Both the position numbers and the translations under genes were made by a program. Under the pieces are notes generated by a model. The model did no database searches. It worked only from the letters and a program-made list of their open reading frames with translations, and was not told the origin of the DNA. 64,000 nt of DNA from Oasisia sp. SBJ-2009. Lineage: Eukaryota > Annelida > Polychaeta > Sabellida > Siboglinidae. Shown piece after piece: positions 6,921 through 58,676 of the stretch (positions are counted from its first letter, which is position 1; each line of letters opens with the position of its first letter). The stretch spans positions 45,582,816 to 45,646,815 of the forward strand of contig OZ024860.1 in NCBI GenBank assembly GCA_964017155.1, given 5' to 3'.

Positions 6921-9900
6921 GTATGTAGCATGGAGTAATTCTGAGATAAATGTCAAAAAGGTTGGCTTCCGCGTAGAACTGTAACCATTTGGTCCATTAA
7001 TGGCATTATGATCATGTTCTGAGTGAGACCTTATTAAATTATGGCTTATTATATAATAACATTATAACCATAATTTATACAAACTCGTCAGTTAATAGAA
7101 CCCTGCCGAGTGCTCGAAACAAGACGAAAGTGTAAGCCAAAGCTTAGCCTTATGCTTAAACTCTTAATCTTGGCAAACCGTACACGTATTAAATTTATTC
7201 AATTATTGTTGGTATTCCTGTCATGCCCATGGTTATGTATTTGGATTTGCTAATTCCGCATTAAATGCCTAGTCTAAGCATTGAGCTAAGGCCTAAGCCA
7301 GTGGCGATGGAACTTTGACTGAAAGGAAGCCGGTTAAGAAGCTGATAATGGGAACTTCTGTCACCTTCAGTTCTGCCACCAAAACATGGGGACAAAGTGA
7401 CCTGATACTGACAGGATGGAGACAAAGTGACTGGACACTAGCTGACATGATGGAGACAAAGTGGTCTGACACTGACAGGATGGAGACAAAGTGACCTGAC
7501 ACTGACAGGATGGGGACAAAGTGGCATAACTGACACATTGGGGACATCATTAGTTTATTGACATCAGGAACATGATTGATCCTGGGGGCATTTGGCTTGT
7601 TAATAAATGTAACATGGGAATTGTGCCAGGTAGGCTGTTGGAGAATTGACTAGAACTGGACAGGACTGGGAACATTTGGCCTGATGGCGTGAGAAAAAAC
7701 ACAGGTTGATCGCAGTTTGTTAGCTTCGAATGGTGTGCAAGTTGACGGTATCCAGAGAACGCTTGGGGCGAGGCGCATGCAGTTGGGAAATTTTCGAAGA
7801 GCTGTCACGCACGGTTTTATCTGAAGACCAGTCCTGTCATTTACTTGGCCTGAATGTGCCGCCCTCATGCTGAAGCCAGTTCTCATCCCACCAAACCTTT
7901 ACGCAAGATCAAAGTTTTGCCATTCAAAATAATCCTGTTACATGTGTTTACTGTATACAAAATGTGCATGATCATGAATATGGACTCAAGCATGCAAACC
8001 ATGGACTATGGTGTGGGCATTATTACTTAAATAATTAGCATTATCTACCTACTAAATACTCACTGAGTTTAGGAAGAGGGTCAGCTTTGAACAGTAGAAG
8101 GACACTGTCACATTAACAGATTACCTACCAGTGGTCCTGCTGTTTTATGTCTAATGCCAGAACACAGTAACCCGTGTCAAGTGTCAACTGACATTTCTTC
8201 CTGCTGAAACTGATAAGTTCCAGTTCAAATGACTGGTGGACTGGTCTCTATATAAAGCTGTCTCTCTCCCTAAGGAGTACACAGAAGTTACCAGACATGG
8301 AGTCAAATACATTTGTATTTGAAAGTATTTAAATCCTTTTTTCAAAGTATTTGTATTTACCTTTAGGAATGAAAAGTATTTGTATTTAAATACTTTCCTA
8401 AAGTATGTCTTTTTTTTCAAATACTTTCAAATACTTTTTTCAAATACATTTCAACATCAACACTTCTGTTTCAAGATCACATGTAGTGCCAGCCAAACTG
8501 ATTACCTTCATTGCAACTTCACCCAACAGTGCTAATTACTGATGAAGACACTTAACAGCAGGTGTTCCCATGGCCCTGTCAGTGACCACAACTTTTGTTT
8601 GCTCAGAGCCAGAGTATACATTAACACATGACAGTGACCATAGGTCAATATCCCCTTTGTTCTTTAGTCAGGTTCTGGTCTGCTTATCATCATATGAGCA
8701 AAACACAAATTATGCCAATAAACTAGATGTCTCAATATGTGAGTTCTTTTCTTTTACTTACATAGTAATACATCCTGAAAATTAAAAGTATTTAAAAAAG
8801 TATTTGAAATACTTTCCAATGTATTTGTATTTAAATACATTTGTACTTAAACATATTTGTATTTGAATCCCTCAAGAGTATGTGTAGACATCTCAATGTA
8901 TATGATCCCATGTCTGGTAGGTACACAATGCTAATAACCTTAATTGGCTAATTATACCGAAGCCATGCAAGACTGGCAACAGTTTGATCCCGCATAGAGG
9001 CCTGCTTTCGGTCTAGGTCCGTTATATACCTACTTCCCATGATAGCTACTTCCCGTTAGCTACAGTTTTTCCCCGATATAGCTACTCGTTCAGATTGACA
9101 GGCAAACTAGTCCCGTTATAGCTACTTATTTAATTACACAATTTCGGAGGGGACAGCAAGAGGGAGCATTAACTATTTCAGATTACTGTAAGAGTACAGA
9201 ATTGCATTTATCAAAAAGTAAAGCTATGTTGTGTGGTGATGGGATGGCAGCATCATGTTTAGCAACCATGAACTAGAAGATGTTGGGATGGTATTTCCCC
9301 ACCACTTTCGCAAACTTGGAATTCCATCCCCCAACATGGTTGTTTGTTCATGTATCAGTTTACTGTGTAGACCTTCCACATGGCCATGGTGATTTTGTAA
9401 TCATCACCAAGCCATGTCTCCACAAAGTACAAGTTCGTTAAATATTATCACTTGACTTTGTGGAAATTCCTCAATCAAAGCCATCCACCTCTTACATTGG
9501 CTGGATGGAGATTAAAAAGTTAATGCTCCCTTATCTTGTTACATTGTAAAATGGAGAACACGAAAAGTAGCTATAACGGGACTAGTTCAACTGTCAAACT
9601 TAATGAGTAGCTATAACTGGAATAAAAAGTAGCTATAACGGGAAGTAGCTATAACAGGAAGACACCCTGCTTTCATGGGGTATGCAGAATTGCAGACATT
9701 TTCAGAGAGCCACTGCTCGCTCTTTGAATAGTCATCCCAATCTGTCACCAGTGTCTGGCAGCACATGTGTAACCATCACCCACGAGACAACTGTTGACAT
9801 GTGGATGCCTTTGTGTTTGGTTGCAGGGCCAGACTTGAAGGGTAAGATGCACATTGCTAATGCCAGTAATGTGCAAATTGGCAATGGCAACGTGATGGTC

Positions 9901-11045
9901 ATTCAATCTGGCAAACGCCGTCCAACAACACCAAAAACCAAGCACAGACCAGAGCCACCTATAACAGGTACAATGATGCACAAGCAATGTTACCAGAAAA
10001 ATACATCATCAGCAGCATCGGTTTCATATTATATCCCAGCAAACAAGGAACCATTTCTGAACCAGTTGGCACATGTCATACTGGTTCATAATTGGTACCG
10101 CTCCATCAATATGTGTTTTCATGTGTATTCACATGAATACATGTGTTCTGCCTGTTGTCACGAGTTTTGACCAAGTTTGACACGAGTCGTACTGGATCAG
10201 AACTGGTACGGTTTCACTGACATGTGTCGTCACGTGAAAAACTTGTAATTTCACGGTAAACACACCAAATTTGTTCACAGAATCCGGTGAAATCACGTAT
10301 GGAAACACGTGAATTGAGCCAGTTGAACTCATGAATTCACTTACAGAACATGTGAAATCACGGGTCCTTGTTTGCTGGGATAACCTATCATTTTTTTTAT
10401 TTTTTATTTTACCTTATCTATTATCTTGTACATGTTTTTACAATAATTGTACACACTATCTTCACTCATTTATTACCAATATACCCTTTATTTTAATAAT
10501 CACCTGTCGCTGTAACTTATTAGTTATCATAAAATTGTATTACTATTACATTTAAATACATATTTTATGTACTGTCATTTACTTTTTTAATTTCTGTCCA
10601 GTTATGTGTAGTAGTACCTATGTCAAACAGCTCCATTACAAAAGATAACCTCTACAAATGTTGCTGTGGAATCACCAACATCATTAGTTATTGTTTTTAC
10701 ACATATCATTTTTACAGTCATAAATTTACAGTGTACCAAGGTTTTTGTTAAGAGCTAGTATGCACGTAATTTATCTGTCTTTAGCAATCCTTGTAGCCAT
10801 CTAATACTGTATTGGGAAGGGAAGATTTTTTTATTAGTACTTTGCTAACATTATAGTTGTTCATTTTTTGTGTAACTAATCCACTGATCCATGCATTAAG
10901 AACTATCAATTCAAATATGGAAGACTACAATTTGTATGGCTATAAACAACTTTAAAAAGTATATCCTTCTTTAAAAAAATGTATTTTCAGTAACATATAA
11001 GTTAATGTTTTTGATTTTGGTGTCCGTCCATCATAATTGTTGTTT

Positions 11046-11103
<58 letters not shown>

Positions 11104-12018
11104 ATGCGAGTGTGCATGCTTGTGTGTGTGTGCGTATGTGTATGTTTGTATTTGTGCATGACTGCCATCAATTTATTTGGATCAGAACATTTCCAATTTT
11201 ACGTACACACATATTGATATTACTTTCTCTGGCAAGTAGTATGGTTCAATTCCAGGGCTTTAAGCAGGACCAAATTATTGCCAGTCACACATGTTTTGAT
11301 GGATGTTAACTGTAAAGCCAGTTTACAAACTTTAAAACATGTCTGATGACCTGAAATTGGCTACAAACAAACATGACACCATTTACATTCACTTCTAAAG
11401 TATAACTGACAATATCTATAGTTTTGGAAGACTTCATTTTTGATCCTGTAATTATTTACCCATCCACCAGACTTCTACTCTTCCACAATGGTTTTTACCC
11501 ATCCAAATGACGGGTGGATGGGTCTCTGCATAAAGCTATGCTCAATTCAAACAACTGAGTCTCTAAGTCACTGAAATAAAACTAAAATTTAATGACTCAG
11601 TTAACACACATAATGATGTTGGCAATTGTGGTATGAGTCTTTTTAAGTAAACAGGCAAACATTTGTGCCATTGTTGAAACAGGTTTTTAGTATGTAATTA
11701 TTTTGTTTGTTAATAGATTGTTGTGATGTCATCACTGGTGATGACATGGATTTGATGGAAACACATCTTGGAAGTAACTGGACGACGATTGCTCGCAAGC
11801 TTGGCTTTGAGGATGGTGAAATTGACATTATAAGAGAGGACTACCGCGGCAATCTACGAGAACAAATCCATCAGATGCTGCGACAGTGGAAAGAGAGAGA
11901 GGAAGCCAGGGCCACAGTTGGTGCACTGGCTAAGGCGATCTTCTCTGTGCCAGAATGTGCTGGTGTCCTCAAGTACCTGGAACGAACCCATCCAAGTGAC
12001 GGAGCTAAACCCAGTTGA
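6860..12018 (+). CDS. RHIM plus death-domain adaptor (IMD/RIPK1-like), three exons
   Basis: Predicted 167-residue protein from exons 6860-6920, 9827-9967 and 11717-12018, joined at phase-1 introns with canonical GT/AG ends. Residues 36-44 (VQIGNGNVM) fit the RHIM consensus [IV]-Q-[ILV]-G-x-x-N-x-[MLI], the amyloid-forming core of RIPK1, RIPK3, TRIF and ZBP1 and a relative of the Drosophila IMD motif. Residues ~74-157 form a death domain (LGSNWTTIARKLGF, then EIDIIREDY and LREQIHQMLRQWKERE). Residues 50-66 are a Lys/Pro-rich linker. There is no kinase domain, so it is an adaptor rather than a RIP kinase. Inferred role: cytoplasmic relay between death-domain receptors or adaptors and RHIM partners in NF-kB or cell-death signalling. 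A FADD- or IMD-type name would be a guess; no symbol is given. Confidence 0.85.
7050..7130 (+). repeat. dispersed repeat fragment
   Basis: The segment with GTCAGTTAATAGAAC and TGCCGAGTGCT is also found at about 62150-62185 and, more diverged, downstream of the micro-exons near 47100 and 54720. It is a dispersed element in intron 1 of the RHIM gene. Confidence 0.6.
7383..7540 (+). repeat. ~30 bp minisatellite
   Basis: About five imperfect copies of a unit built on GGAGACAAAGTGACCTGACA, with one expanded copy (~34 bp). It lies in intron 1 of the RHIM gene. Confidence 0.85.
8292..8916. mobile_element. hAT-type MITE
   Basis: 625 bp bounded by inverted CAGACATGG / CCATGTCTG with long subterminal inverted tracts of AAATACATTTGTATTTGAAA type. 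Flanking 8-mers GAAGTTAC and GTAGGTAC (6 of 8 identical) fit an old hAT 8 bp target duplication. No transposase. Confidence 0.8.
9010..9665. mobile_element. MITE with TAGCTAC-rich inverted ends
   Basis: Terminal inverted repeats consist of reiterated TTATAGCTACTTCCCG-type sequence (compare 9110-9130 with 9560-9585). The perfect 9 bp direct repeat CCTGCTTTC at 9001-9009 and 9666-9674 is the likely target duplication. Non-coding. Confidence 0.8.
9827..9967 (+). CDS. RHIM adaptor exon 2 (RHIM motif)
   Basis: Acceptor GGTTGCAG, 141 nt, donor GTACAA; phase 1 at both ends. It carries the whole RHIM core and the basic, Pro-rich linker. The symmetric phase means skipping would remove the RHIM but keep the death domain in frame. 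Confidence 0.85.
10032..10382. mobile_element. MITE with CCCAGCAAACAAGG ends
   Basis: 351 bp with inverted ends TATCCCAGCAAACAAGG and CCTTGTTTGCTGGGATA, and many internal CACGTG/CATGTG-like palindromes. It lies 65 bp downstream of exon 2 of the RHIM gene. Confidence 0.82.
11049..11102 (+). repeat. (GT)n microsatellite
   Basis: A pure GT run of about 27 repeats, followed by a degenerate GT-rich tail to about 11155. Confidence 0.97.
11250..11545 (+). repeat. dispersed repeat, inverted copy at 43.4-43.7 kb
   Basis: Shares, in opposite orientation, GCCAGTCACACATGTTTTG, the GTTTACAAACT segment and CCCATCCAAATGACGGGTGG with 43435-43665. A third trace (CTGGCAACAGTTTGATCC) lies near 8975. Likely a non-autonomous element. 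Confidence 0.7.
11717..12018 (+). CDS. RHIM adaptor exon 3 (death domain)
   Basis: Acceptor TTAATAG, then 99 further codons and TGA at 12016-12018. Encodes the complete six-helix death domain and a short tail ending GAKPS. Confidence 0.9.
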
Positions 12019-13156: not shown

Positions 13157-13197
<41 letters not shown>

Positions 13198-33721: not shown

Positions 33722-33775
<54 letters not shown>

Positions 33776-41469: not shown

Positions 41470-41775
41470 TTAAGCCTCTCAACTCCGCCTGGGATATTAA
41501 TGGGTCTTAAGTTTCTAACATCCGGGTAGCCTTACCCCAGATTAGGGTAGAGACACTGATTGGCTCTCAGGCCAACTAGGAAATAAAAATCCAAATAACG
41601 ATATACTTTTACAAGATAATATCATGAAAAGTATTCAACATTGAACTTATATTAACACAAAAGTAAGCAAAAATTCAAATTTACAGTTGTTTATAAATAA
41701 GAATTACGGCAGGATTAACCAGTATCCGTGAGGTGGCAGCATTTTCTAGCCCCACACAGATAGCATTCAAATTAA

Positions 41776-42494: not shown

Positions 42495-42850
42495 TTAAAT
42501 AAGGATACCTTTTTATCAAATAATGCTGTATTATAAAAACTATTCAAAACTAAACTTATATTAACACAAAATAAATAGAAATACAAATTTGTAGTTGTTA
42601 ATAAAAAAATATACATTCCGGCAGTGTCCGTGAGGTGGCAGCATTGTATAGATCACGCTGATAAACAAACAAAAGCCGTTAATGTGGCCAGACTGTCTTC
42701 TCGGCGTTGTTCCGCAGCCGACCGACAGTCGGTTAAGCGAGACTATCCTGTCAACGACAACGAGGGACAGTGGTTTTCCAATTGGCGGCCATGTTAACGT
42801 TTTGTCTGATTATAAGAACTGTACTTGATAATTGTTTTATTTCTACACAG

Positions 42851-42933
42851 TGACTGCAATCATGTCATTGACATGCTCATCAAAGGTCTACAAAATCACA
42901 TACCTCAGGCTCTGGCTCTTAAAATGCAAGCAG
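42851..42933 (+). CDS. candidate exon a of the micro-exon gene
   Basis: Acceptor TTTCTACACAG; reads DCNHVIDMLIKGLQNHIPQA then LALKMQA. The donor GTGTCA is weak, so the 3' end is uncertain. Phase at exit fits exon b. Confidence 0.4.
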
Positions 42934-45900
42934 GTGTCATTGTGTGTTGCTTGTCAATATTGACCAAATTTAGCCTGTTTTTCTGTATCTGCAGCTGCAG
43001 GGTCGTGTAAAATTTACTAAAATGTCTTAAAATCACTATGCAAACTATACTCTGCCTAACATGGCACATACGTAGTTACACTGCAGATACATCATTGCAC
43101 CGAATAAGTTACTGTGCATGTTTTATTGCACCCATTTTACATTAAAAAAAATCAAAATTTTACATAACACATTTATAATTGGTCAAACCAGGAAGTCTAA
43201 CTATGCACTGCCCCCCTAATACTAGTAATAGGAAATTTGAATTATTTTAAAAACCTTGAATTTAGTGTCTTGAAAACTACATATTATTATGCAGAAGGCC
43301 AAAAAAATCAATAAAGTCATCCCTTCATGTAGTATTTTTTATCAACTTCACAAGTGACCACCCATGCCATACACATGGGCCAATATTGAATACAAAATAA
43401 TATCTGTTATAGTGTTGACCACAGTACAACTGACAGATTGCTCATACATGCATACAGAATTGATCTGTGACAGCCCGTCCACCCGTCATTTAGATGGGTA
43501 AAAACCGTGGACGAGTGAGTGTAAGTAGTGTCACATGTGTGTTTGTAGTTCATTTCAGGTCATCACAGAGTTTGTAAACTGGTTTAACAGTTAACATCCA
43601 CGTGTCAACCAAAACATGTGTGACTGGCAATAGTTTGATCCTGCATAAAGCCGTTGTGACCGCCCACCATATAATATCAAAAAAAATCGTGCATAGCGTG
43701 TTATTACCATGTGGTGAAATATATCTGGTAAGCAGTCTTGTATATCCTTACTGAATGCTCTTATTGCAAAACAATGTTACTTTATGTCTCTAGATATGGA
43801 AAATATATGACAGCATTGCAAACCATACAGTATTATCTGTGAAATCACTGTTTTTAATCAATTTCCTGTTTCCACCGTAACTGCGTTTCAATGAAAATTA
43901 CTGAAGAGTGTTCAAGATGCATCCAGGAGTTATGACAGGCTCACAGGAAGTGTGACCGGACATGCCTTTGATCTAACATCTGGCTGTAAGCTTTGTGAAA
44001 AGACAACAATCATTGTTCCTTTGTTCTGAGCAAGTGCAGTATTTGGGCATTACATTTTACAAGTTGTATTATCTCACTTTTCTGAAATCACCATTTTAAA
44101 GTGAAATATAGACATCTTTATAATTATAGGGTAGGAGTGGCACAATTTCTTTTTTAAGTGATTTGTTCTTTTGTAGAAAGCCTGAGTGACAAGGTTTTCA
44201 TTTTCTGGTGGAGCAGGAAAAATACCATAAAATTGACATCTACCTGGGACAGTTAATAATGGTTTTATGATGGATTATGTGTGATCACCCCTTCAGTAAT
44301 TTCCATAGAAAAACAGTTACGGCGGAAAAGGGAAATGGGTTAACATGGGCGATGTCAAAGAGAATAATGTTAGCTTGGCAATGCTATCCCTATTTTCCAT
44401 CTCTAGCAACATATGCAAACATTCTGGTGCAATAAGCTTCCTGAAAGATGACATATGAGGTCATTACAAAGAACTTTCAATGATTGATTTTGTTGATGAA
44501 AACGCGAATGGTTTAGATTGCATTTTACATTGTGGTAGATAAAATGTTATAACATCTGCAATTTTTAAGGGATTAAAATACTTTTAATATGGCTGTTGAA
44601 CCATCATTTTCATGAAATTTTCATACTTTTCAGTCCTGAGTTGTGTACTCATTATTTTATAGTGATTTGTCTTAGGCAACCCCTTCAGCAATTTCACTGA
44701 AAATTTGTTGTCGTGAAAATGGGGTTCATGCTAAAAAAATTGATTTCTCATAGAATGGTGTTAGTCCTGCAATGCTATCACATATTTCCTATCTCTAAGG
44801 ATGGAAAATCAAAAAATCACTGTGAGCATTTGTTCCTAAATGTACTCATTGCCCAAATTTTGGGGTGTGGCTCATGGCCTATTAGTCATAGGACAAATTC
44901 AGAATTGAGGTTCCAGGGGAATGTGACATTGAAATGGTGATTTTGCAGGAACACCCAAAGTAACCAAGATCATGGCTTTGGACAGCTTGCATTTGCCTAG
45001 TGGCAGCACAATGGAAGGGTAAGTCAGTAATATCTTTAGAATGTAAGTATAATGTGAAGAATTTCCAGCTATTAAATATAGAGTAAAGGTCCTTTCATCA
45101 AATGTTACTAATCTATAATTTAGGAACATTTGTAAATATTAATTACTACAATTTAACAAAATGGCTTGTATCTGATAGTTACTCTATGGAATACAAGTAG
45201 ATTACTTATGGAACCGCTAGCAAGGGATTACTTTGCCCTGCAGTGTCTCGGTGGTACCAACTGTAGATCTCATCTCAAGTACTTTTTGCTCTGGATATCT
45301 CCACCCAGTCTTCTCCTGTATTTCACTCTTGGGAGTAGATGTTGGACTTGAGCACAACACAGATAATGATCATGTGTTGGATGTATTCCATCAGTGTTGT
45401 TGGCATTTGTAGTAAGGATGGGACGAATCTGGAAATTCTATCGAATTGAATGTCCTCGACATTTCAAATTCGATTAGAATAATGAATTGTGTCGAGATGT
45501 CTTGCCGGGATGCGGCGTCATCCCGTGGCCATGGGCACAAGTCCGTGCCGGAGTCGTCAGCATCGTGGCCATACGCATCGATCTTTTTATTTACTTCCTG
45601 ACCTAACCATGAAAACGATTTCTTACAACCACCAAACTTATCCTCACATATCTTGTGTACATAACTACATACATATTCACACAATAGATTACAAAATATA
45701 ATATCTTACATTCCTGTAAAAAATATTTAGAAAACAAACTCATGCAAAACTCGACATGATCTATGGTGGCTACACAGAGCTCGTCACTTACCATAACATG
45801 GCTAATTTATCGCAGGCATCGATAAATAAATAACCATCATTCCAGTTTCAAGCTAACCCTAAAGTAACCCTAACTAAGCCTAAGCTAACTGTAACTAATC

Positions 45901-48900
45901 ATAAACTTACCCGAAACCCTAAGCTTAAACCTTAACCCAACACTGCTAACAAAAGTCCTCTTGACACAATACTGTTGCATTGCTGGCGGGTTTTATGCGA
46001 GTTTGTTTAGTGAAGTTTATTTGTTTAAGTAATGTTAGTGATTTTATTTTGTAATCTAGTGTGTATTTACATATAAGGCATAGTTAAGTCAGAAAGTAAA
46101 AGATCACCCATGACCGATTTTGCGGTGGAGGACATGAAGGAAAATATTCAAGCAATATTCATTTATATATATAGCTTCTAATTTTTAATCGAATAACGGG
46201 AAAACGTTTGAATTTTCGAAAATTCGTATATGAATCAAATATTTGTCCCATCCTTAATTGGTAGTTTAGTAGCTTATCCATGGATGGCTGGTATAATTGC
46301 CTGATGATCACAGGACTCTTGCTTTAACAGACCACTCTTCTTGACATGTCATTTGTGATTTCACACACACAGTTAGTTGGGGCGGAACTCGAGCAGTGGT
46401 TTACCTCTGCCGTTGTGTCTTGCTATGGACCAGGATGACAATGATCTGTGGTGTGTGCCCTGGTATTTGTTTGTGTTATTTAATGTGACTGTTTGCTGAA
46501 ACTGATAGGGCTATGTGCCTACACAAATATGATCATGGTTTCCTGCTGATATATGCACGATGAGTGAGTATGATGTACATACAACAAGAGGTTGGTTTTA
46601 AAGAATTAAATTTCTTGTTCAACTTGTACACAATTTAATCTACAGTGCTTGTGGCCAGAGCGTGTGTAAACAAGGTTGACATGATGGTGCCTTGGTAAGG
46701 TTGTGCAGACAGAATTTACATCTGACAATCCCAGAGATGTTTCTCCGACCTACGATCACTGTGCAACAAGCATGATAAACTGCTTTCTTACTGAGTACAT
46801 TGTTGTTACCTGTTTAGACATTTTCATGCAGTTCTATAAAAAAAAGTATCATTTCAAGTGATTGTAGGTTTTGCTTGTATATATTAAAAAAAATCTATAA
46901 ATTGTGTTATGTGTCCTATTAGGCTGTATAATTGTCATTGAACTGATGTAATGTTGTATAAATGTGGTGTAACTATTGTTTACACACTTTTGTAGGGGTG
47001 TGCAGCAGGAAGAAGGGGACTGGAGGTAAGAAAGTAATGCCAGAGCAGTGATTACCATATTTCCTGCATCCTGCTTGGCGACAATGTTGAGAAAAGGATG
47101 TCTAGAAGAATGAGATCTCATGAGATCATGAAACTGTAACCACCATACATATAGACTAATCATTTAGTTGAAAATCAGAGAGCACTAGCAACAACTCCGA
47201 CTCATCTAATAGTTTATAGTTAGTGCAGTTTTCCTTTTCTTGGAGGTCACAAGTTTCCCACCATACAATAAATACACTTAGTTCCATTGTTATTGTAGTA
47301 AGCATGCGATTTTTGAAGCACATTGGCATACAAAAAAATATATTGTATTTTACATTTCTATCGCTGACTTCGTTTCAACCTGGTGTCTATGCCATTTTGT
47401 GCGTTTCAGCCTTTACGTGATGCTAATATTCGGCAATATTTTTATGTCAAGTTCAGAGCCTACGCCATCATAAATATTCACAGAATTTTTATAGATCTGC
47501 AGTAAGCTGTGATACTGTGTGAGGAAATTGTGCTGAATAGTAAACACAAATGTCTTGCCAACTGGACACAGTAAAGTCGGGCAGTAAACAGCGGATAGTG
47601 CGCGGATACTGTGTCCACTGTAGTTAGCTGTCCTGTCGTCACTATATTCATACAGTTTTCTATAATTTCAAGTGATGGTAGGTTTTGTGTAAATATTTTT
47701 TTTTAATTTGTTAAATTGTTTCCTGTTTCCTATTAGGTTCCTATTTGTGTTCGTTGGATGGACTGTTGAGACACAGTTCTGGGTGTTCTGCCTCTAGCAC
47801 CTTTGTGCATCAAACTCCTGGGAGGTAGTGACAGAGGACTGCATTCATGAGTCACAGCAGCCACTGTCCCCCCTGATCTGAGGTGGTGAGACACTTGAGT
47901 AGTTCAACCACTTTCAGGTTGAATGTTGCAGTCTCATACTTGTCTTGACACTCAGGTCAGGCAAGTGTCATACTAGATAAGCAAGGGCTGTATGAGTGCA
48001 AGTACCTGTGGGAACTTTGTGCATGCCACAGGCAGGGCATTTCCTTGGTGGGTGTGCTGCATCACAATTACAACATTTCTGTGTGTAACAGAATTTCACA
48101 GTTTCTATTGTTGTAATTATTTGTTGTTGTATTGCACAGGTCCTTTTGTCTTGAAGTACCTTATGGCAGTTTGTTGTGCTGTATGTGCTTCTGAAGCATC
48201 AGTGGAAATTGCCTCTGTGTTGTTTCTGCTGCCTGACAAATCTTGGTGGCAGTTGCCAGGTTCAAGTTGTCTTCTCGCACCAATCTCTCACGCACCCTGT
48301 GGCTCACAGTGTCCAGCACTATACAGTCACGTGTCATGCTCTCACACATGTCCCCTGTGACCATGTCTGAGCCTTCAGCTTCAGGTCTGTCACAAACTGT
48401 CTGTGCTTTCAACTGTTTTTTTTCACGAAAAGTTTTGTCCATACATCGTATTTTCACATTGTAGAAAGCCTGTGATTTTTTAAGCACACTGGCAAACTTT
48501 CCTGTACTGAAAGAAATTAATTTAATTTTACACTTCTATGGCTGACTTCTTTGCAACCTGGTGTCATTGCCATTTTATACATGTCAGCCTTTGTGTGACA
48601 TTAGTTTTTGTCAAATATCCCCGTCAAATTCAGAGATTGTGTCAAGGACTAGACATGTTTTCATAGACCTGCAGTAAGCAGTGGTACTGTGTGAGGAAAG
48701 TGTGCTGAATAGTAAACAAAAACGTCTTGCTAACTGGACACAGTAAAGTCAGGCAGTAAACAGTGGATACTATGTACGCTGTAGTTAGCTATCCTGTCGT
48801 CTCTATTTTCATACAGTTTTCTATAATTTCACATGATTATAGGTTTTGTTTGAATACATTTGGTAAATTGTTTAATTTTTCCTATTAGGTTGTATACTTG

Positions 48901-51900
48901 TTATCGAGCTAACATAATATTGTATAGATATGGTGCAATTGTTTTACTGGTTTTTTGTGTGCAGGAGAATCTTTCCACTGCGGGAGGGAACAGAAGCGAC
49001 CTGGAGGTAAGTGACATCAATGCAGTGGTCACCCTCACTTCCTGCATCATGCTTGACCACAATGTTCAGTGAATACTGTCTAGTTGAGTGAGAGATACTC
49101 CACGAGAGCATAACATTGTAACCACCATACATACAGAGTGTCACAAGTTTCCCACCATACAATAAATATATTCTTAGTTCCATTGTTATTGGCGAAAGCA
49201 TGTGATTTTTGAAGCACACTGGTAAAAAAGTAAATTGTATTTTAACAAGATTTAACAAGATTGCCACCTAGAGAATCAACTCAAGATGGCAGGTGGACAA
49301 GGAAGCCCTTTGGCTTATCGAGAGTCCAACCTATCTATCTAAATGTACCCCGCCCTTCTTAGGTACATGTCAATTTTATTTTTAAACATATTAACACTAC
49401 TAGCACCTACACAATCAGCCGATAATCTGTTCCATTCATTTACTGTTCTTTGTGAAAATGAAAATTTTCTAATATCTAATCTACACTGCTTCTTTGCTAA
49501 TGTAACTCCATGTCCTCTAGTCCTTCTCTCTTCCTTAACTGAGAAAAAAATATTTCTGTCAATATTTTCATACCCATTCAATATTTTAAAAACTTCTATC
49601 TGATCTCCTCGCAGTCTCCTGGTTTCTAGTGTTGTTAATCCACATTCTTTTAGACGCATTTCATAACTAATATTCCTGAGTTTTTGTATCATTTTGGTTG
49701 CTCTTCTTTGTACTCTTTCTAGCATATCAATATCCTTCTTGCGATAAGGCCTCCATGCCTGTATGCAATATTCTAAATGAGGCCTAACTATTGTTTTGTA
49801 CAGTGGTATTATTAGTTCTTTTTCCTTGTACACTATATTTCGCCTAATTAATCCAAGAATTTGGTTTCCCTTCGCTGCTGCAATTGCACACTGTTCTGAT
49901 ACCTTCATATCAGCACTAATAGTTAACCCTAAGTCCTTTTCCTTTATGGTAGTATTTAGTACAGTATCACCCATTGTATATTGTGCATCTTCATTCCCAT
50001 GTCCTGTGTGGAGGCACTTACACTTCCCATAATTAAACAGCATTTGCCACTTCTCAGACCATTCGGTCAACTTATTTAGATCATCTTGTAATTGCTGTCT
50101 ATCTGCATCACTTTTTATTTTTCTGAACACTTTTGTATCATCCGCAAACTTCAACACCTTGCTTGTTATATCATCATCCAAATCATTGATATATATTAAG
50201 AACAAAATAGGTCCCAATACTGATCCCTGCGGTACTCCACTCAAAACCGATTTCCAGTTTGAAACCTCCCCATCAACTACTACTCTTTGTCTTCTATCAA
50301 TAAGCCATTTTTCTATCCAGTTAATCATAACATTGCCTATGCCATGGGCCTTCAGTTTAAGTAGTAATCTTTGATGTGGCACTTTGTCAAAAGCTTTTTT
50401 AAAATCTAAGTATATTATATCTACTGGTGATCCCTCATCTACCCACTTTGTGACATCTTCCAAAAAACATAAGATATTTGTTAAGCATGACCTCGCTTTT
50501 AGAAACCCATGTTGAGATGGGTTAATCAAGTTATTTTTAACAAGAAAATCAACCAAGTGATCTTTAATTAGTCTTTCTAATAGTTTACAAATCACTGATG
50601 TTAAACTCACTGGTCTATAGTTCTCTGACTTGCTTCTTGATCCTTTTTTAAATAATGGTATGATGTTTGCTTCTTTCCATTCTAACGGAACTACTCCTTC
50701 CTCTAATGCCAAATTGAACACTGTTGCAAGTGGTATGCTAATTTGTTCTACAATTTCCAGTAGTAATTTGGGAGGAATGCCATCCACTCCAGGTGACTTA
50801 TTATCCTTCATATCCCTTATTTTCTTAGCTACCATTTTTGGTGTTACAATTAGTTGTCCTAAATAGTCTGACTCTCTCCCTTCGAATTTAGTCTCTGGTA
50901 CTGGTAATGCACTAATATCTTCCCTGGTAAATACCGAACTAAAGTATTCATTTAGGTTTTCTGCCATTAAGAATCCCTCTGTTATTATGTTTCCATCACG
51001 ATCTTCTAGAGGTCCGACCTTATCCTGAACTTTCTGTTTACTTCGAACATACGCATAAAAACTCTTGCTGTCATGTTTTATATTAAAAGCTATTTTTTGT
51101 TCATAGCTTCTCTTTGAATTTCTAATTTCAGCTGTAGCTTGGTTAAGTGCTTCTTTATAAATGGCATAGTCTTCTTCACTTCCATTATGTCTATATGTCT
51201 TCCACATCATTTGCTTGTATTTGATTTTTTTAATGGCTTCTTTTGATAAGTGTTTCTTTTTTGTCCGTTTCCCCTGTTTTTTCAAGGGGACAAATTTTTC
51301 GACAATGCAGTCAATTTCACTCTTTAAGATATTCCAACATTCTGTTGCTGTCTTATTCTCCAGTGTGTTATTCCAGTCTATCTTTGCTAAATATTTCCTC
51401 ATGTCCTTATATCTTCCTTTGTGAAAATTTTTCCTGTACCGTATTTTTTTATTCTGTTCTCCTTTTACTTTGATGATAAAATGTATCTGGTTGTGATCAC
51501 TACATCCCAGTGGCTCACATATCCTGACATTATCAATAAATTCCTTCTGTGAGCTCAACACTATGTCCAACACGTTCTCACCCCTTGTTGGTTCTAACAC
51601 ATGTTGAATAAGGAAACTGTCTTGTACTAAATTTAAAAACTTTTGATCTTCACTCCCAGTACTCTGTAGAGATTTCCACTGTATATGCCCATGGTTAAAA
51701 TCCCCCATAATTATACAGTCCCGTTTACTGACTTCCTTTATAGCGTTTTGTATTTTCTCATTCTCTTCTGTGTTTATGTTTGGACTTCGATAAACTAACC
51801 CAACAGTTAACGTTGAGTTTCCTGAAACTATGTTACACCAGACAGCTTCTTCACATTCTGCTTCTTTTTCTAATTTTATTTCGTAAGCCTGGATGGATTC

Positions 51901-54900
51901 TTTAATATATAAAATAACGCCACCTCCCCTTCTCCCTATTCTATCTTTCCTAAACATGACATATCCTGTCATTCCTAATTCAGCATCTGATATGTCGGGG
52001 GTGGCCCAAGATTCAGTTATACCTATTATGTGAGGGTCAGTATCTTCTACCATAATGTTTAGTTCATTTCTTTTGTTTACTATGCTCCTTGCATTTAAAC
52101 AAACACATTTATAACCAAATGTGGTAGAGTTTTCCAGACTGTTCTTTGCCGTTTTCTTTGTGCTGTCCTTATCTGTGCCTCCAGTATTTGGCTTCTCTGT
52201 GAATCCCCCCTGCGAATCTAGTTTAAATAACTGCAACCTGTTCCACTGTTCATAGATCGAAGCAAGTTCTCAGAGAAAACTGCAGCGCCCTTTCCGCTTA
52301 GATGGAGGCCATCTCTCGTATACATATCTTCTTTCCCAACAAAGTATCCCCACAAATCTACAAATCCAACTCCTTCTTCTTCACACATCTGCTCTACTAG
52401 AACATTGATTGCCATCCTCTTGCAGTTTCTATAAGCTACACCCCTTCCTCCCATCACTGGCAAAATTCCTGAGAGAATAATCTGCTCAACTCTTGTCTTC
52501 TTCAGTTTCCCTACCAACTGTCTGTATCTTTTCACTATTCTAGTTGTCCCCTCCCTGTCTGCATTGTTCGTCCCTACATGTACTAATATAGATCCTCCCT
52601 GGCCATGCCCCAATGTATTCTCTACCCTTTCTGTCACATGCTCTATCCGAGCGCCCGGAAGACAAACAACAACATCTTCGCCTTTGTTTAAAGTCTTGTC
52701 TGTCTTTCTCAAAATTGAGTCGCCCATAAACACCCTTTCTGTTCTCGATGCCCCCTCAATCACTGCCTCAGAGTAGCTCCTCCGTGTTGCATCTCCCTGG
52801 TCGTTGACTTTTCTTCCTCCCGCCTTCTCTGTTGTTCCTTTTTTCCCTACCTCTTTTCGTCCTGTCATCATCCCTGTTATTGACTTCCCTTTCGGCACAT
52901 TTACTCTCACTTCCTTTCTTCCATTCATCTTTCCTCCGGTCACATGAACTTCTCTCCTCTCCTGTCCCATTGCTCCCCCCTCATCTACTGTCACTTTCTC
53001 CCCTGTCACCTTCCTGCATGCCATGCTTTCTCTTGTTCTTTCTCCATTTGTTTTCCTTGCACTTACCCTCCCTCCTCTCAATCTCCTGTCCTCATCCTTC
53101 TTGTCACTGCATTGCTCATTCCGACCTCTTCCATCCGTCTCTTTGGTTATTTTTATATCCAGCCCCTTCACAATATCGGTTAGCCTAGCTAACTCTACTG
53201 TAAGACATTCCACTTTACAACATCCTGTGCACTGGAAAGTAAAGTCTTCCTCCATTGTTTCTGCCCATGACTTTGTGCATCCGGATAGAGCAAAATCGAC
53301 AAAGCTGTGACAATAGTCACATACTAAGTGCCTCCTTGCCTTCACTTGCCGCTTGCAAGGGGCCATATTATGATTACACAGGAACTCAAAATTTACTCAG
53401 TCTGTATACCAATTAGTCTTTAGAAAGACTGTTTTATGTGGACAGTAACTGCAGCTCACTTTATGTTATACACAACTGACAAATTTAGTCTTTACTGGTG
53501 CCGTTCCCTAGCGGACACGTTGGACACTACCTACATAAACAAACTAAGGTTTCTACTAAAAAGCTTGCTTATTTTTTAATAACAATGCTACCTGATCAAA
53601 GTATTATCTTACTTATGTAGCTGTTATGTTTGCTACTTTATATGTTACATATTCTATCAAATAATCAGATTTGCTAAATCTTGTAAACAACCTTGTCGAA
53701 GGCTAGATTACCCTATTGTCACCCACTATGCTAATCTGCTCAAAAAATACTTTTAACTAACAAACTTATTACGAAAACTTTATGAATAATCTTCACATAA
53801 GAATAATACTGTAGCTGTTATGCTGAATACTATATCTGATAAATATTCTATCAAATAATAAGTTTTGCCAAATCTTGTTTACAAACTTGTCGAAGGCTAA
53901 ATTACCCTATTATCACCCACTATACTATAATCTGCTCAAAAATACTGTTAACTGACAAACCTTTAACCAAACTATTACCCAATATATGTCTAGTACTGCT
54001 TTATGAATAATCTTCACATAAGAATAATACTTATCAGTCACTATTTCCTCTTGTTTTTCAACTTTTATGCACCACCAATTTCAAACATCTGCTCCCGCCA
54101 ATGTTCCCGCCAGTATATACACTTCTGTGACTGATTTCTTTGCAACCTGGTGTCAATGCCATTTTCTGCATGTAAGCATTTGCAAGACACTAGTTTTCGG
54201 CAATATCCCCATTAAGTTCACAGACTCTGTCATGATAAGTATTCACAGACACGGACTAGACATGTTTTCACAGATCTGCAGTAAGCTGTGGTACTGTGTG
54301 AGGAAAGTGTGCTGAATAGTAAAAAAAGTCTTGCTAACTGGACACAGGAAAGTCAGGTAGTAAATAGCGGATACTGGGTACACTGTAGCTAGCTGTCCTG
54401 TCGTCACTATTTTCATACAATTTTCTATAATTTCAAGTGATTGTAGGTTTTGCGTGAATACATTAAAACAATTACATTAGTTGTGTCATGTTTCCTATTA
54501 GGCTGTATAATTGTCATTGAACTGATGTAATGTGGTATAGATATGTTGTAACTATTATTTATACATTGTTGCAGTGATGAACTGGATGAACTGGCCTGGT
54601 GGTAAGACAGTTACATCAATACAGTGATCACCCTCACTTCCTGCATCATGCTTGGCCACAATGTTCAGGAAAGGGTGTCTAGATCATAACACTGTAACCA
54701 CCATACACACAGACTAATCATTTAATTGAAAATCAGAGAGCACTGGCAACAACTAGAACTCCGACTGCATCTAATAGTTTACTATTAGTGCAGTTTTCCT
54801 TTTCTTGGAGGTCACAAGTTTCCCACCATACAATAAATACACTTAGTTCCATTGTTATTGTAGTAAGCATGCGATTTTTGAAGCACATTGACATACTAAA

Positions 54901-57900
54901 TAAGGAAATTGTATTTTACACTTTAATGGCTGACTTCGTTTCAACCTAGTTTCAATGCCAATTTGCGTGTCAAGTTCAGAGCTGCCGTCATCATAAATAT
55001 TCCCAGAAAAGCATCAAACGTAGACCTGCAATAAGCTGTGATCCTGTGTGACGAAAGTGTGCTGAGTAGTAAACAAAAACGTCTTGCTAACTGGACACAG
55101 TAAAGTCAGGCAGTAAACAGTGGATACTATGTACACTGTAGTTAGCTATCCTGTCGTCTCTATTTTCATACAGTTTTCTATAATTTCACATGATTATAGG
55201 TTTTGTTTGAATACATTTGGTAAATTGTTTCATTTTTCCTATTAGGTTGTATAATTGTTATCGAGCTAACATAATATTGTATAGGTATGGTGCAATTGTT
55301 TTACTGGTTTTGTGTGTGCAGGAGAAGCTTTTCACTGCGGGAGGGAACAGAAGCGACCGGGAGGTAAGTGACATCAATGCAGTGGTCACCCTCACTTCCT
55401 GCATCATGCTTGACCACAATGTTCAGTGAATACTGTCTAGTTGAGTGAGAGATACTCCACGAGAGCATAACATTGTAACCACCATACATACAGAGTGTCA
55501 CAAGTTTCCCACCATACAATAAATATATTCTTAGTTCCATTGTTATTGGTGAAAGCATGTGATTTTTGAAGCACACTGGTAAAAAAGTAAATTGTATTTT
55601 ACACTTCTGTGACTGATTTCTTTGCAACCTGGTGTCAATGCCATTTTCTGCATGTAAGCATTTGCAAGAACAGTTGATACTGTGTCCACTGTGGTAAGCT
55701 GTCCTGTGACCTGTGGTCACTATTTTCTTAACGTTTTCTATAAATTCAGGTGGTCATAGCTTTTGTTCAAATAATTTATTTATTTCTGTAAATCTTGTCA
55801 TATTTTCATACAAAGTATACGTGTTATCATAAAGATATTGTATAAATAGGGTGTAACTAATTTTACTGTTTTTTTTGTAGTAATACCTGCTTCATGGATG
55901 TATCTGACTCCGGCAGGTGAGTAATATCAATGCAGTGATCACTCTCACTTCCTGATCATGGTTGGCCACAATGTTCAGACAAAGCTGTCTAGTTGAATGT
56001 GACTTTGTGAGATCGTAACATTGTAACCACCATACATACACACTAATCAATTAGTAGAACATCACAGAGCACTTGAAATAACTAGTATTAAAACTTCAAC
56101 TGCATCTAATAGTTCACAGTAGTCTTCCTTTTTTGACGTAGTTATTGACAGTATACAGTGGCCTCGGTGGTCAGATTTTGATGTTGCTCCATGAAAGAAA
56201 TGTTTCCCTACTCCAATTTTTATCTAAGCTGTGTCTAAATGAGCTAAGTCATTAAATTATTCCACAAGTTTATTATTTTATTTGAAATGTGTACATTTTT
56301 TATCTCTACTGATGATGCATTGCTTGTTCATTGGTGTCCATAGGATTTACTGTTGAGACATAGTTCTGGGTGTTCCGCCTCTAGCACCTTTGTGCATCAA
56401 ACTCCTGGGAGGTAGTGACAGAGGACTGCATTCATGAGTCACAGCAGCCACTGTCCCCCCTGATCTGAGGTTGGGAGACACTTGAGTAGTTCAACCACTT
56501 TCAGGTTGAATGTTGCAATCTCATACATGTCTTGACACACAGGTCAGGAAAGTGTCATACTAGATAAGCAAGGGTTGTAGGTGTGCAAGGACTTGCGGGA
56601 ACTTTGTGCAATCCACAGGCAGGGCATTTCCTTGGTGGGTGTGCTGTGTCACAATTACAACATTTTTGTGTGTAACAGAGTTTCACTGTTTCTGTTGTTG
56701 TAATTGTTTGTTGTTGTATTGCACACATCCTTTTGACTTGAAGTACCTTATGGCAGGTTGTTGTGCTGTATCTGCTTCTGAAGCATCAGTGGTAATTTAA
56801 CTCTGTGTAGCTTATGCTGCCTGACAAATCTTGGTGACAGTTGCCAGGTTCAAGTTGTCCTCTCGCACCAATCTCTTACGCACCCTGTGGCTCACAGTGT
56901 CCAGCACTATACAGTCACATGTCATGCTCTCACACATGTCCCCTGTGACCATGTCTGAGCCTTCTGTTTCAGGTCTGTCACAAACTGTCTCTGCTTTCAA
57001 CTGGTTTCTTCATGAGGAGATGTTTTGTCCATACATCTCATTTTCACATTGTAGAAAGCATGTGATTTTTTAAGCACGCTAGCATACTTACCTGCACTGG
57101 AAGAAATTAATTGTATTTTACACTTCTATGGGTGACTTCTTTGCAACCTGGTGTCAATGCTATTTTCTACATGTCAGCCTTTGTGTGACACTAGTTTTTG
57201 TCAAATATCCCTGTCAATTTCAGAGCTTGTGTCATGATAAGTATTCACAGACAAGGACTAGACATGTTTTCATAGACCTGCAGTAAGCAGTGGTACTGTG
57301 TGAGGAAAGTGTGCTGAATAGTAAACAAAAATGTCTTGCTAACTGGACACAGTAAAGTCAGGCAGTAAACAGCAGATACTGTGTACACTGTAGTTAGCTA
57401 TCCTGTCATCACTATATTTATACAGTTTTCTATAGTTTCAAGTGATTGTACATTTTGCGTGAATAAATTTGTCTAATTTGGTAAATTGTTTCATGTTTCC
57501 TATTAGGTTGGTTACTTGTTAGCGATCTGACATAATATTGTATAGATATGGTGCAATTTGTTTACGATTTTTTGCAGCGAGGAACGAGCAGCTACTAAGA
57601 GGTAAGTGACATCAATGCAGTTTCCTTTTTTAGGAGGTCACCTGTTTTCCACCATACAATAAAAACACTTAGTTCCATTTTTATTGTAGTAAGCATGTGA
57701 TTTTTAAAGCACACCGGCATTCTAACCTGCATTGAAAAAAGTTAATTATATTTTACACTTCTATGACTGACTTCTTTGCTTACTGGTGCCAATGCTATTT
57801 TTTGCGTGTCAGCATTTGTGTGACACTAGTTTTTGTCAAATATCCCTGTCAAGTTCAGAGACTGTGTCATGATAAGTATTCACAGACAAGGACTAGACAT

Positions 57901-58256
57901 GTTTTCATAGACCTGCAGTAAGCAGTGGTACTGGGTGAGGAAAGTGTGCTGAATAGTAAACACAAATGTCTAACTGGACAGAGTAAAGTCAGGCAGTAAA
58001 CAACGGATACTGTGTCCACTGTAGTTAGCTCTCCTGTCGTCACTCTACTCATACAGTTTTCTATCATTTCAAGTGATGGTAGGTTTTGGGTGAATACATT
58101 TAAAAAAAATGGGTGAATGTGAATTGTTTCCTGTTTCCTATTAGGTTGTGTACTTGTTATCAAGCTGACATAATATTGTATAGATATGGTGCAACTATTG
58201 TTACTGTTTTTTTGCAGGGAGTTCACACCGATTATAGAGGAAAGTGAACTCGGCAG
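42851..58256 (+). CDS. unrecognised gene with an array of symmetric micro-exons (partial)
   Basis: Nine exons on the plus strand join into one open frame. Exon a (42851-42933) leaves in phase 1; exon b (44949-45018) is open only when entered in phase 1 and leaves in phase 2. Seven micro-exons of 30, 42, 27, 42, 36, 24 and 39 nt follow, each with a poly-T acceptor and a GTAAG or GTGAG donor, and phase 2 is the only frame open in all. Together they encode about 130 residues, mostly short charged peptides (GVQQEEGDW, DELDELAW, EERAATK, PIIEESELG). No domain, signal peptide or start codon is visible; the first and last exons lie in unassigned sequence or outside. Each micro-exon sits in a copy of a ~0.7 kb duplicated block. 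I do not recognise the protein. Alternative inclusion of cassettes would keep the frame. Confidence 0.6.
43430..43700 (-). repeat. dispersed repeat, inverted copy of 11.25-11.55 kb
   Basis: Same landmarks as the copy in intron 2 of the RHIM gene, in opposite orientation (CACCCGTCATTTAGATGGG, ACCAAAACATGTGTGACTGG). Confidence 0.7.
43865..44340. repeat. inverted repeat in the intron between exons a and b
   Basis: TTTCCACCGTAACTG with AAAATTACTGAAG at 43868-43907 faces CTTCAGTAATTTCCA and CAGTTACGGCGGAAA at 44291-44330. A partial third copy lies near 44684. Probably a MITE. Confidence 0.6.
44949..45018 (+). CDS. candidate exon b of the micro-exon gene
   Basis: Acceptor GATTTTGCAG and strong donor GTAAGT. 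Of three frames only one is open: TPKVTKIMALDSLHLPSGST. It exits in phase 2, the phase required by every micro-exon downstream. Confidence 0.55.
45413..46256. mobile_element. hAT-type MITE
   Basis: 844 bp, inverted ends TAAGGATGGGACGAAT / ATTTGTCCCATCCTTA, flanked by ATTTGTAG and ATTGGTAG (7 of 8 identical), a hAT-style 8 bp target duplication. Confidence 0.88.
46996..47025 (+). CDS. micro-exon 1 (30 nt)
   Basis: Acceptor ACTTTTGTAG, donor GTAAGA. In phase 2 it encodes GVQQEEGDW plus split codons. Confidence 0.6.
47990..48420 (-). pseudogene. Gypsy-like gag fragment inside an array block
   Basis: The minus strand reads DCIVLDTVSHRVRERLVRED, then NLNLATATKICQAAETT, the end of a Gypsy capsid, and near 48090-48020 CNCDAAHPPRKCPACG, a zinc-knuckle region. 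It was copied along with the block (see 56590-57000). Confidence 0.7.
48965..49006 (+). CDS. micro-exon 2 (42 nt)
   Basis: Acceptor TTTTTTGTGTGCAG, donor GTAAGTG. Phase 2 gives RIFPLREGTEATW. A close duplicate is micro-exon 4. Confidence 0.65.
49339..52236 (-). CDS. CR1 ORF2: endonuclease and reverse transcriptase, intact
   Basis: 965 residues in one uninterrupted frame. APE endonuclease at about 40-260: NARSIVNKRNEL, GITESWATPDI, RRGGGVILYIKE, GLVYRSPN, MGDFNHGHI, SDHNQIHF. RT at about 440-730: NKSPGVDGIPPKLL, NYRPVSLTSVICKLLE, QHGFLKARSCLTN, YLDFKKAFDKVPH, GVPQGSVLGPILFLIYINDL, LKFADDTKVF (intact FADD). The tail ends with the usual NEWNRLSADCV and a basic helix. It nicks target DNA and primes cDNA synthesis there. 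Start codon choice is uncertain since the frame opens inside ORF1; reinitiation or shunting from ORF1 is likely. Length and motif set fit a complete CR1 ORF2. Confidence 0.92.
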   Translation of the reverse strand: MQLFKLDSQGGFTEKPNTGGTDKDSTKKTAKNSLENSTTFGYKCVCLNARSIVNKRNELNIMVEDTDPHIIGITESWATPDISDAELGMTGYVMFRKDRIGRRGGGVILYIKESIQAYEIKLEKEAECEEAVWCNIVSGNSTLTVGLVYRSPNINTEENEKIQNAIKEVSKRDCIIMGDFNHGHIQWKSLQSTGSEDQKFLNLVQDSFLIQHVLEPTRGENVLDIVLSSQKEFIDNVRICEPLGCSDHNQIHFIIKVKGEQNKKIRYRKNFHKGRYKDMRKYLAKIDWNNTLENKTATECWNILKSEIDCIVEKFVPLKKQGKRTKKKHLSKEAIKKIKYKQMMWKTYRHNGSEEDYAIYKEALNQATAEIRNSKRSYEQKIAFNIKHDSKSFYAYVRSKQKVQDKVGPLEDRDGNIITEGFLMAENLNEYFSSVFTREDISALPVPETKFEGRESDYLGQLIVTPKMVAKKIRDMKDNKSPGVDGIPPKLLLEIVEQISIPLATVFNLALEEGVVPLEWKEANIIPLFKKGSRSKSENYRPVSLTSVICKLLERLIKDHLVDFLVKNNLINPSQHGFLKARSCLTNILCFLEDVTKWVDEGSPVDIIYLDFKKAFDKVPHQRLLLKLKAHGIGNVMINWIEKWLIDRRQRVVVDGEVSNWKSVLSGVPQGSVLGPILFLIYINDLDDDITSKVLKFADDTKVFRKIKSDADRQQLQDDLNKLTEWSEKWQMLFNYGKCKCLHTGHGNEDAQYTMGDTVLNTTIKEKDLGLTISADMKVSEQCAIAAAKGNQILGLIRRNIVYKEKELIIPLYKTIVRPHLEYCIQAWRPYRKKDIDMLERVQRRATKMIQKLRNISYEMRLKECGLTTLETRRLRGDQIEVFKILNGYENIDRNIFFSVKEERRTRGHGVTLAKKQCRLDIRKFSFSQRTVNEWNRLSADCVGASSVNMFKNKIDMYLRRAGYI
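52218..53366 (-). CDS. CR1 ORF1: zinc finger plus SGNH esterase
   Basis: 382 residues. Residues 14-55 carry a Cys cluster (CDYCHSF, SGC, CTGCC) resembling the atypical PHD fingers of LINE ORF1 proteins. A Lys/Arg/Gly/Thr-rich low-complexity stretch (about 90-200) follows. The C-terminal half is an SGNH-hydrolase domain: FMGDSIL (catalytic Ser), HVGTNNA (Asn block) and DGLHLSGKG (Asp-x-x-His). Esterase-bearing ORF1 proteins are typical of the CR1 group and are thought to bind the element RNP and membranes or lipids. The frame is intact, and its last 19 nt overlap the open frame of ORF2. All catalytic residues are present. Confidence 0.9.
   Translation of the reverse strand: MAPCKRQVKARRHLVCDYCHSFVDFALSGCTKSWAETMEEDFTFQCTGCCKVECLTVELARLTDIVKGLDIKITKETDGRGRNEQCSDKKDEDRRLRGGRVSARKTNGERTRESMACRKVTGEKVTVDEGGAMGQERREVHVTGGKMNGRKEVRVNVPKGKSITGMMTGRKEVGKKGTTEKAGGRKVNDQGDATRRSYSEAVIEGASRTERVFMGDSILRKTDKTLNKGEDVVVCLPGARIEHVTERVENTLGHGQGGSILVHVGTNNADREGTTRIVKRYRQLVGKLKKTRVEQIILSGILPVMGGRGVAYRNCKRMAINVLVEQMCEEEGVGFVDLWGYFVGKEDMYTRDGLHLSGKGAAVFSENLLRSMNSGTGCSYLN
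54575..54601 (+). CDS. micro-exon 3 (27 nt)
   Basis: Acceptor CATTGTTGCAG, donor GTAAGA. Phase 2 gives DELDELAW; phase 0 opens with TGA. It is separated from micro-exon 2 by the antisense CR1 insertion. Confidence 0.62.
55322..55363 (+). CDS. micro-exon 4 (42 nt)
   Basis: Acceptor TTTTGTGTGTGCAG, donor GTAAGTG. Phase 2 gives RSFSLREGTEATG; four base changes from micro-exon 2, three of them altering the peptide. Confidence 0.65.
55881..55916 (+). CDS. micro-exon 5 (36 nt)
   Basis: Acceptor TTTTTTTTGTAG, donor GTGAGT. Phase 2 gives NTCFMDVSDSG; phase 0 opens with TAA. Confidence 0.62.
56590..57000 (-). pseudogene. second copy of the gag fragment
   Basis: Near-identical to 47990-48420 and in the same place relative to the array block (VLDTVSHRVRKRLVREDNL), so the insertion came before block duplication. 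In-frame stops differ between the copies. Confidence 0.7.
57578..57601 (+). CDS. micro-exon 6 (24 nt)
   Basis: Acceptor GATTTTTTGCAG, donor GTAAGTG. Phase 2 gives EERAATK; phase 0 has a stop. Confidence 0.62.
58218..58256 (+). CDS. micro-exon 7 (39 nt)
   Basis: Acceptor GTTTTTTTGCAG, donor GTAAGG. Only phase 2 is open: EFTPIIEESELG. This is the rightmost unit before LINE C. Confidence 0.65.
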
Positions 58257-58676
58257 GTAAGGCATTGGCATCAATGCAGTGATCACCCTCACTTCCTGCT
58301 TCATTAATGACAGTACACAGTGGCCCTGGTGGACAGATCTTGATGTTTCTCTCTGAAGGTTCACCAAATTCACGACAACCCAGATTTATGGTCTGAAAAC
58401 AATTCTGTACTTTAATATTAATCTGATTCTGATTTGCTATAGTGCAAGACCCCTACTGGGGCATCACACACTAGTAGTTCGGTAGGTTGGTCGACTAGTA
58501 GGTCGGTTTCAGGATGGCTGGCTTCATGTTATCTGGAAGTGGAATAAGAGTATTTGTGCTTGGGAATATGGGATTAGGGTGGGCTGGATGGGGAAAGTAC
58601 AAGCCTGCGATGGGGGAAGGTGGGGGTGTGGTAGGGATGGGGTGTGGAAAGGGACTGGGGTAGTGGTGTGTGTTGT

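Follow-up and report, generated by a model that had tools for sequence, protein, structure and literature searches.

In schistosomes, a group of genes was described, the micro-exon genes (MEGs), whose numerous tiny exons mostly have lengths divisible by three and are set apart by long introns, and whose proteins share an N-terminal secretion signal, according to the accessible text of PMC10526429; 35 such genes are mentioned for a flatworm. The limit set for a microexon differs between sources, being 30 nt or less in one abstract and 27 nt or less in another. In fast skeletal troponin T, exons 4 to 8 and a foetal exon are alternatively spliced and belong to one phase class (PMC2447309, in excerpt). 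Among signalling adaptors, IMD carries a cryptic RHIM and, at its C-terminus, a Death domain by which FADD is bound (PMC9496462, in excerpt). A survey of the nemertean Lineus ruber reported an imd gene, and no RHIM, in that worm (PMC9835746, in excerpt).

Here, we describe a locus in the annelid Oasisia sp. that brings features of these systems together. The window, i.e. the whole stretch of 64,000 nucleotides that was analysed, corresponds to positions 45582816-45646815 of contig OZ024860.1 (C7 in our numbering), and the genome searched comprised 764 Mb on 33 contigs. All positions are given in window coordinates; those above 64000 lie on the same contig, downstream of the window. We consider the locus to hold, with reasonable probability, an adaptor gene of the IMD/RIPK1 type in which an array of 20 tiny exons, all of phase 2 to 2, precedes a C-terminal Death domain (the array gene). 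A second gene in the window (sister gene A) carries a related Death domain, and the pair is labelled as IMD/RIPK1-type adaptors because IMD joins a cryptic RHIM with a Death domain and an imd gene is reported from a nemertean.

With the MEGs the array gene has the exon design in common, all 20 lengths being multiples of three, and the likeness to MEGs put forward in the original prediction was borne out as far as symmetric tiny exons of one phase are concerned. It does not extend to the kind of gene, the single locus and the annelid-type linker domains of this genome. MEG products are secreted, whereas the array gene ends in a Death domain, which argues for an intracellular protein; MEGs form a gene family in a platyhelminth, whereas the array unit was located at one locus (40 of 643 candidates scored). 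We regard the schistosome MEGs as an analogy and not as the family of the array gene. The erythrocruorin linker domain, which is known from annelid haemoglobins, has 6 matches in this genome, making an annelid the likely source, and none in 14 control genomes; as these are apparently of microbes, they leave room for animals of other groups. The 5' cassette exons of troponin T are small. Like the array, those of fast skeletal troponin T form a run of same-phase optional exons within one gene, whereas they number five plus a foetal exon, in a muscle protein, against 20 in a Death-domain gene, and the accessible part of PMC2447309 mentions no recent block-wise expansion such as the array has undergone.

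The tandem array of tiny exons

Seven candidate exons in the window had been proposed, lying between acceptors and GTAAG/GTGAG donors, and all seven are present, with lengths of 24-42 nt:

46996..47025, plus strand, micro-exon E1, 30 nt, GVQQEEGDW
48965..49006, plus strand, micro-exon E2, 42 nt, RIFPLREGTEATW
54575..54601, plus strand, micro-exon E3, 27 nt, DELDELAW
55322..55363, plus strand, micro-exon E4, 42 nt, RSFSLREGTEATG
55881..55916, plus strand, micro-exon E5, 36 nt, NTCFMDVSDSG
57578..57601, plus strand, micro-exon E6, 24 nt, EERAATK
58218..58256, plus strand, micro-exon E7, 39 nt, EFTPIIEESELG
46788..58337, plus strand, tandemly arrayed intron blocks, the portion within the window

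As proposed, the lengths are divisible by three in 7/7 exons, phase 2 is their sole common frame (offset 1 alone is open in all seven), and the introns of the window are tandem copies of one block. The chance of 1 in 2,000 attached to these lengths needs correction, since it assumes seven independent exons and two of those with 42 nt are almost the same sequence (3/42 differences). The term micro-exon applies to three of the seven at a limit of 30 nt, or to two at 27 nt, and not to the rest. An array of seven is likewise accurate for the window only, as the array totals 20 exons, 13 of them downstream. These 13 and the downstream Death domain lie outside the window and were absent from the original prediction, which moreover overlooked the sister gene with its RHIM and Death domain inside the window, at 9.8-12 kb.

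Each block has an upstream flank of about 200 nt, with a pyrimidine tract followed by GCAG or GTAG at its end and with branch-point-like sites recognised by eye, and a downstream flank that begins, after the donor, with GTAAGTGACATCAATGCAG or close to it. Flank profiles were built from the window units and applied to 264 kb of sequence, the exons being read between the flank matches. The upstream profile matched 23 times and the downstream profile 21 times, always on the plus strand and within 46.8-102.2 kb. By our tally, 17/23 upstream-flank matches reach the acceptor and each of these leads to an intact exon, while the remaining six stop short of it and carry no exon; the upstream flanks of E12, E16 and E20 have diverged. 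Beyond the window, the following exons were read:

73173-73214, plus strand, E8, read between flanks
75383-75424, plus strand, E9, read between flanks
81259-81288, plus strand, E10, read between flanks
82035-82076, plus strand, E11, read between flanks
82533-82574, plus strand, E12, read between flanks
84335-84376, plus strand, E13, read between flanks
downstream of E13, plus strand, E14-E17 and E18-E20, duplicates within an 8.96-kb tandem repeat

The full array thus comprises 20 tiny exons over about 54 kb, summing to 750 nt and including 14 distinct sequences. All 20 are divisible by three and open at offset 1, and no other offset is open throughout. About six sequence families can be told apart by eye, some of which mix lengths; the 24 nt of E6, for instance, correspond to the 3' part of E8 (42 nt). 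The 8.96-kb tandem repeat is present in three copies at 75500-102400, 98.8 to 99.6% identical over the longest alignments; it represents a recent expansion, and copy-number variation is possible. Besides micro-exons, this repeat carries a piece of a LINE, as judged from a recurring LINE-like peptide match. The array would have grown from a single exon-plus-intron block that was repeatedly duplicated in tandem. Relics of the downstream flank are found at 62020-62147 (or 62020-62183), where the donor is lost by eye, and, partially, at 73393-73427. Another such relic lies at 7034-7122, upstream of the RHIM exon of sister gene A, and the array unit may predate the gene duplication.

In the genome search, the array unit was located at one locus only (40 of 643 candidates scored). 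That the blocks are a dispersed mobile element was rejected, as the listed matches of 54000-56000 all lie at this locus, with query positions 1-128 (the LINE part) set aside and 40 of 643 candidates scored. Searches of the micro-exon and upstream peptides against Pfam, PDB and a protein database gave nothing informative. DxxD, a caspase-site pattern, is present in two exon peptides and may be there by chance.

The surroundings contain further elements. A LINE of about 4.9 kb, recognised by domain matches and with inferred ends, lies inside the array:

49339..53366, minus strand, LINE open frames (reverse transcriptase/endonuclease; GDSL lipase), inserted in the interval from E2 to E3 and not belonging to the gene

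Two big inverted-repeat pairs (32356-36144 and 38220-40555; arms 91% and 93% identical) are likely mobile elements, and neither of the two open frames at 16951-18612 (266 and 191 aa) matches a Pfam family. Downstream of the window, one 100-aa open frame recurs nine times at 191777-212204 with a spacing of about 2.5 kb, and long open frames built of short tandem repeats lie at about 154.9-156.9 kb. Rfam and tRNA scans of the window gave no matches.

Downstream exons, Death domain and sister gene A

On either side of the array, and in sister gene A, the following features were found:

44949..45018, plus strand, candidate exon E0, phase 1 to 2, TPKVTKIMALDSLHLPSGSTME, weak acceptor
105549-105715, plus strand, exon X, 167 nt, phase 2 to 1
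106357-106443, plus strand, RHIM-exon remnant of the array gene, 87 nt, 28 residues, phase 1 to 1
106590-106915, plus strand, terminal Death-domain exon of the array gene, to the stop codon, Pfam 1e-15
9827..9967, plus strand, RHIM exon of sister gene A, 141 nt, phase 1 to 1, Pfam RHIM 20.6 bits (cut-off 20)
11717..12018, plus strand, Death-domain exon that ends sister gene A, coding sequence up to the stop codon, bounds by eye

Death domains are typical of intracellular immune and cell-death proteins. Among solved structures, that of the array gene is nearest to RIPK1 by sequence (1.6e-12 against PDB), followed by FADD (1e-8); a single-sequence AlphaFold model of it reached a pLDDT of 54. A genome search with this domain gave two strong matches only, the array gene and sister gene A, next to three weak ones on contigs C5 and C6 (E 1e-5 to 4e-4). 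The phases join throughout: the micro-exons leave two codon bases, X opens with one and closes with one, the 87-nt exon opens with two and closes with one, and the Death-domain exon opens with two. X is the sole lead-1 candidate within 100.6-106.4 kb at the thresholds used, and an exon of its size appeared in 0/300 resamplings, with thresholds fixed after X was seen. With a codon score of 0.19 it exceeds the 95th but not the 99th percentile of random open pieces, and a genome search with its peptide gave a single match.

The Death domains of both genes share 98% protein identity, with 5/297 nt differing between the exons (3 synonymous changes, 2 not). Their similarity ends about 23 nt into the intron, which fits gene conversion. 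Sister gene A has a RHIM-type motif of marginal score before its C-terminal Death domain, as IMD adaptors do and as RIPK1 does; genome-wide this RHIM scored 22.4 bits, the best of two matches and not significant (E 0.127). Exons of sister gene A further upstream were not found. The array gene shares the C-terminal Death domain with IMD, whereas the RHIM is missing from it: its 87-nt exon aligns with the 141-nt RHIM exon of sister gene A with one gap of 54 nt, and this gap spans the whole Pfam RHIM match. As far as known the array gene is RHIM-less, and its 5' exons could hold a RHIM. IMD further has an N-terminus that is cut by a caspase, which exposes an IAP-binding motif. RIPK1 moreover has an N-terminal kinase domain, whereas none was seen in the plus-strand stretches scanned (-39999 to 10000 including a 2.5-kb N run, 12050-15850 and 40950-46900; cut-off E up to 0.1 or 0.5). 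A combined RHIM and Death domain query found no homologue in the protein database, which is suspected to be poor in animals, and when the 5' regions of the two genes were compared at protein level, the similarities were, as we read them, repeats.

At the upstream end, E0 has a codon score of -0.05, between the median (-0.36) and the 95th percentile (0.08) of random open pieces, and at E below 1e-6 the E0 part of the query matched its own place only. Another open and phase-compatible interval, 42851-42933, was rejected as an exon, as it sits in a dispersed repeat (42764-43215) that mimics a coding exon and has similar DNA at 3/3 further loci. A joint query of this interval and E0 gave 48 matches at E up to 1, two of them their own places and 46 weak (E 0.006 or more). 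The chain of the array gene would run from E0 (phase 1 to 2) through E1-E20 (2 to 2) to X (2 to 1), the RHIM remnant (1 to 1) and the Death domain, with some or all of the micro-exons spliced between the upstream part and X.

In the upstream stretches examined, a separate 5' exon of the array gene was not found, and this is one of the observations in favour of sister gene A and the array gene being a single transcription unit with alternative C-termini, in which the RHIM exon joins E0 and the micro-exons would come to stand after a RHIM and before the downstream Death domain. Both lie on the same strand, and the phases fit, the RHIM exon ending in phase 1 and E0 running from phase 1 to 2. We consider this arrangement unlikely, as about 35 kb with mobile elements lie in between, sister gene A has its own terminal Death-domain exon, and a remnant of the RHIM exon is kept on the array side, as expected of a separate duplicate.

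Chance, neutral decay and change in the exons

That the intervals are real exons was weighed against chance, with splice-site thresholds chosen post hoc, just under the weakest real site. At those thresholds each of the seven window units holds exactly one open, frame-keeping exon candidate, whereas 300 first-order Markov resamplings gave no such unit in 270 cases, one in 29 and two in a single case (maximum 2/7). Over 46.0-106.3 kb, equal thresholds yielded 55 AG...GT intervals of 15-75 nt. Twenty of these are the array exons, all divisible by three, while the other 35 are spread as 10/12/13 over remainders 0/1/2, it being noted that among these 35 several copy one another, overlap array exons or use their inner sites.

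The lengths point in the same direction. Indels between intron copies are divisible by three in 9/29 cases (from overlapping pairs that are not fully independent), whereas the exon length states from 24 to 42 nt differ by multiples of three; six such length changes would occur by chance with a probability of (9/29)^6, about 9e-4, and seven with 3e-4, on the assumption that the exon lengths arose from one ancestor. In simulations of neutral decay with assumed divergences of 5%, 8.5% and 12% per lineage, nine exons stayed intact with their splice sites in 5.8%, 0.6% and 0.08% of cases, and kept the frame alone in 34%, 16% and 7%. These simulations favour constraint in a suggestive and not crushing manner.

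The same results bear on the possibility that the blocks are non-coding repeats, in which the exon-like intervals are splice-site mimics or the dead exons of a decayed duplicate. Truncated blocks without an exon do occur (6/23 upstream-flank matches), the locus is rearranging and contains a LINE, and survival of the frame alone in 7-34% of the simulations is compatible with it. Against it stand the 20/20 frame-keeping exons next to unbiased background intervals, the match of their phases to the downstream exons, and the failure to find the unit elsewhere in the genome (40 of 643 candidates scored), so that we hold this explanation to be very improbable. It is likely, judging from the sequence, that the array exons are spliced into mRNA.

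In recent copies the exons seem, on the best reading, to change at a higher rate than the introns. Over three such sets (E2/E4/E11, E8/E9/E13 and E10/E18), hand parsimony counted 14 changes at 114 exon sites and 20 at 630 sites of the adjoining 210 nt of intron, an excess in the exons with a one-sided Fisher p of 1.7e-4. Thirteen of the 14 exon changes are nonsynonymous, an excess that is not significant alone (p 0.10). In the older pairs E5/E10, E12/E13, E12/E8 and E2/E12, the exons do not clearly surpass the upstream flank (0.23, 0.33, 0.36 and 0.50 differences per site against 0.19, 0.41, 0.44 and 0.47), and the downstream flank shows 1 to 5 differences per 55-60 sites. Such exon sequences may have been pushed to change, plausibly by microbes.

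Possible use of the array

As the exons are symmetric and of the same phase, every combination keeps the frame, even a direct joining of E0 to X without any of them. It appears somewhat likely that exon inclusion varies between transcripts, and very small exons are often skipped. This tendency speaks against constitutive use, in which all exons would be real, coding and always included and would give a repeat-built linker without a repertoire of isoforms. Constitutive use nevertheless accounts for several observations: symmetric exons are the necessary outcome of any tolerated tandem exon duplication, the donors are mostly strong (15/20 score 6.4 or more), and no clear competing RNA structure was seen in the upstream flanks of the seven window units (covariation term +0.72; both-side changes in 4/26 predicted pairs). 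We consider it a doubtful alternative, somewhat more plausible than a single transcription unit.

Within the adaptor gene proposed here, a linker of 0 to 250 residues could tune the spacing of the protein or offer variable short docking peptides. A product without RHIM would not itself be able to enter RHIM amyloids, and its near-identical Death domain might let it compete for, or bridge, the same partner, possibly in a regulatory role as a decoy. In Drosophila, PGRP-LF, a member of the receptor family without RHIM, restrains the pathway, according to the accessible text of PMC9496462. As a tentative proposal, slightly ahead of constitutive use in our judgement, the array could be a splicing-based generator of diversity in an innate immune adaptor. 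This adaptor would first have lost its RHIM and then gained the fast-changing exons, which in varying combinations supply a large repertoire of docking or decoy linkers ahead of a conserved Death domain; the repertoire perhaps differs from cell to cell and, through copy number, from one individual to another.

Among the literature matches listed, none concerned a micro-exon array in a gene of the imd or RIPK type or of annelids (e.g. the best 20 of 3,383, with few subscription papers covered). The novelty would best be described as a tiny-exon array of symmetric design that sits in an unexpected gene, has recently expanded and shows signs of rapid change in its exons. Such exons are easily missed by gene prediction, as one exon here amounts to 8 codons. 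The search for combinatorial diversity in innate immunity usually centres on receptors. If the proposal is true, such diversity would have a new site in a downstream signalling adaptor, whose linker is varied by means of tiny exons, and the sister gene, which keeps RHIM and Death domain, would offer a natural test of how Death-domain signalling is tuned independently of the RHIM.
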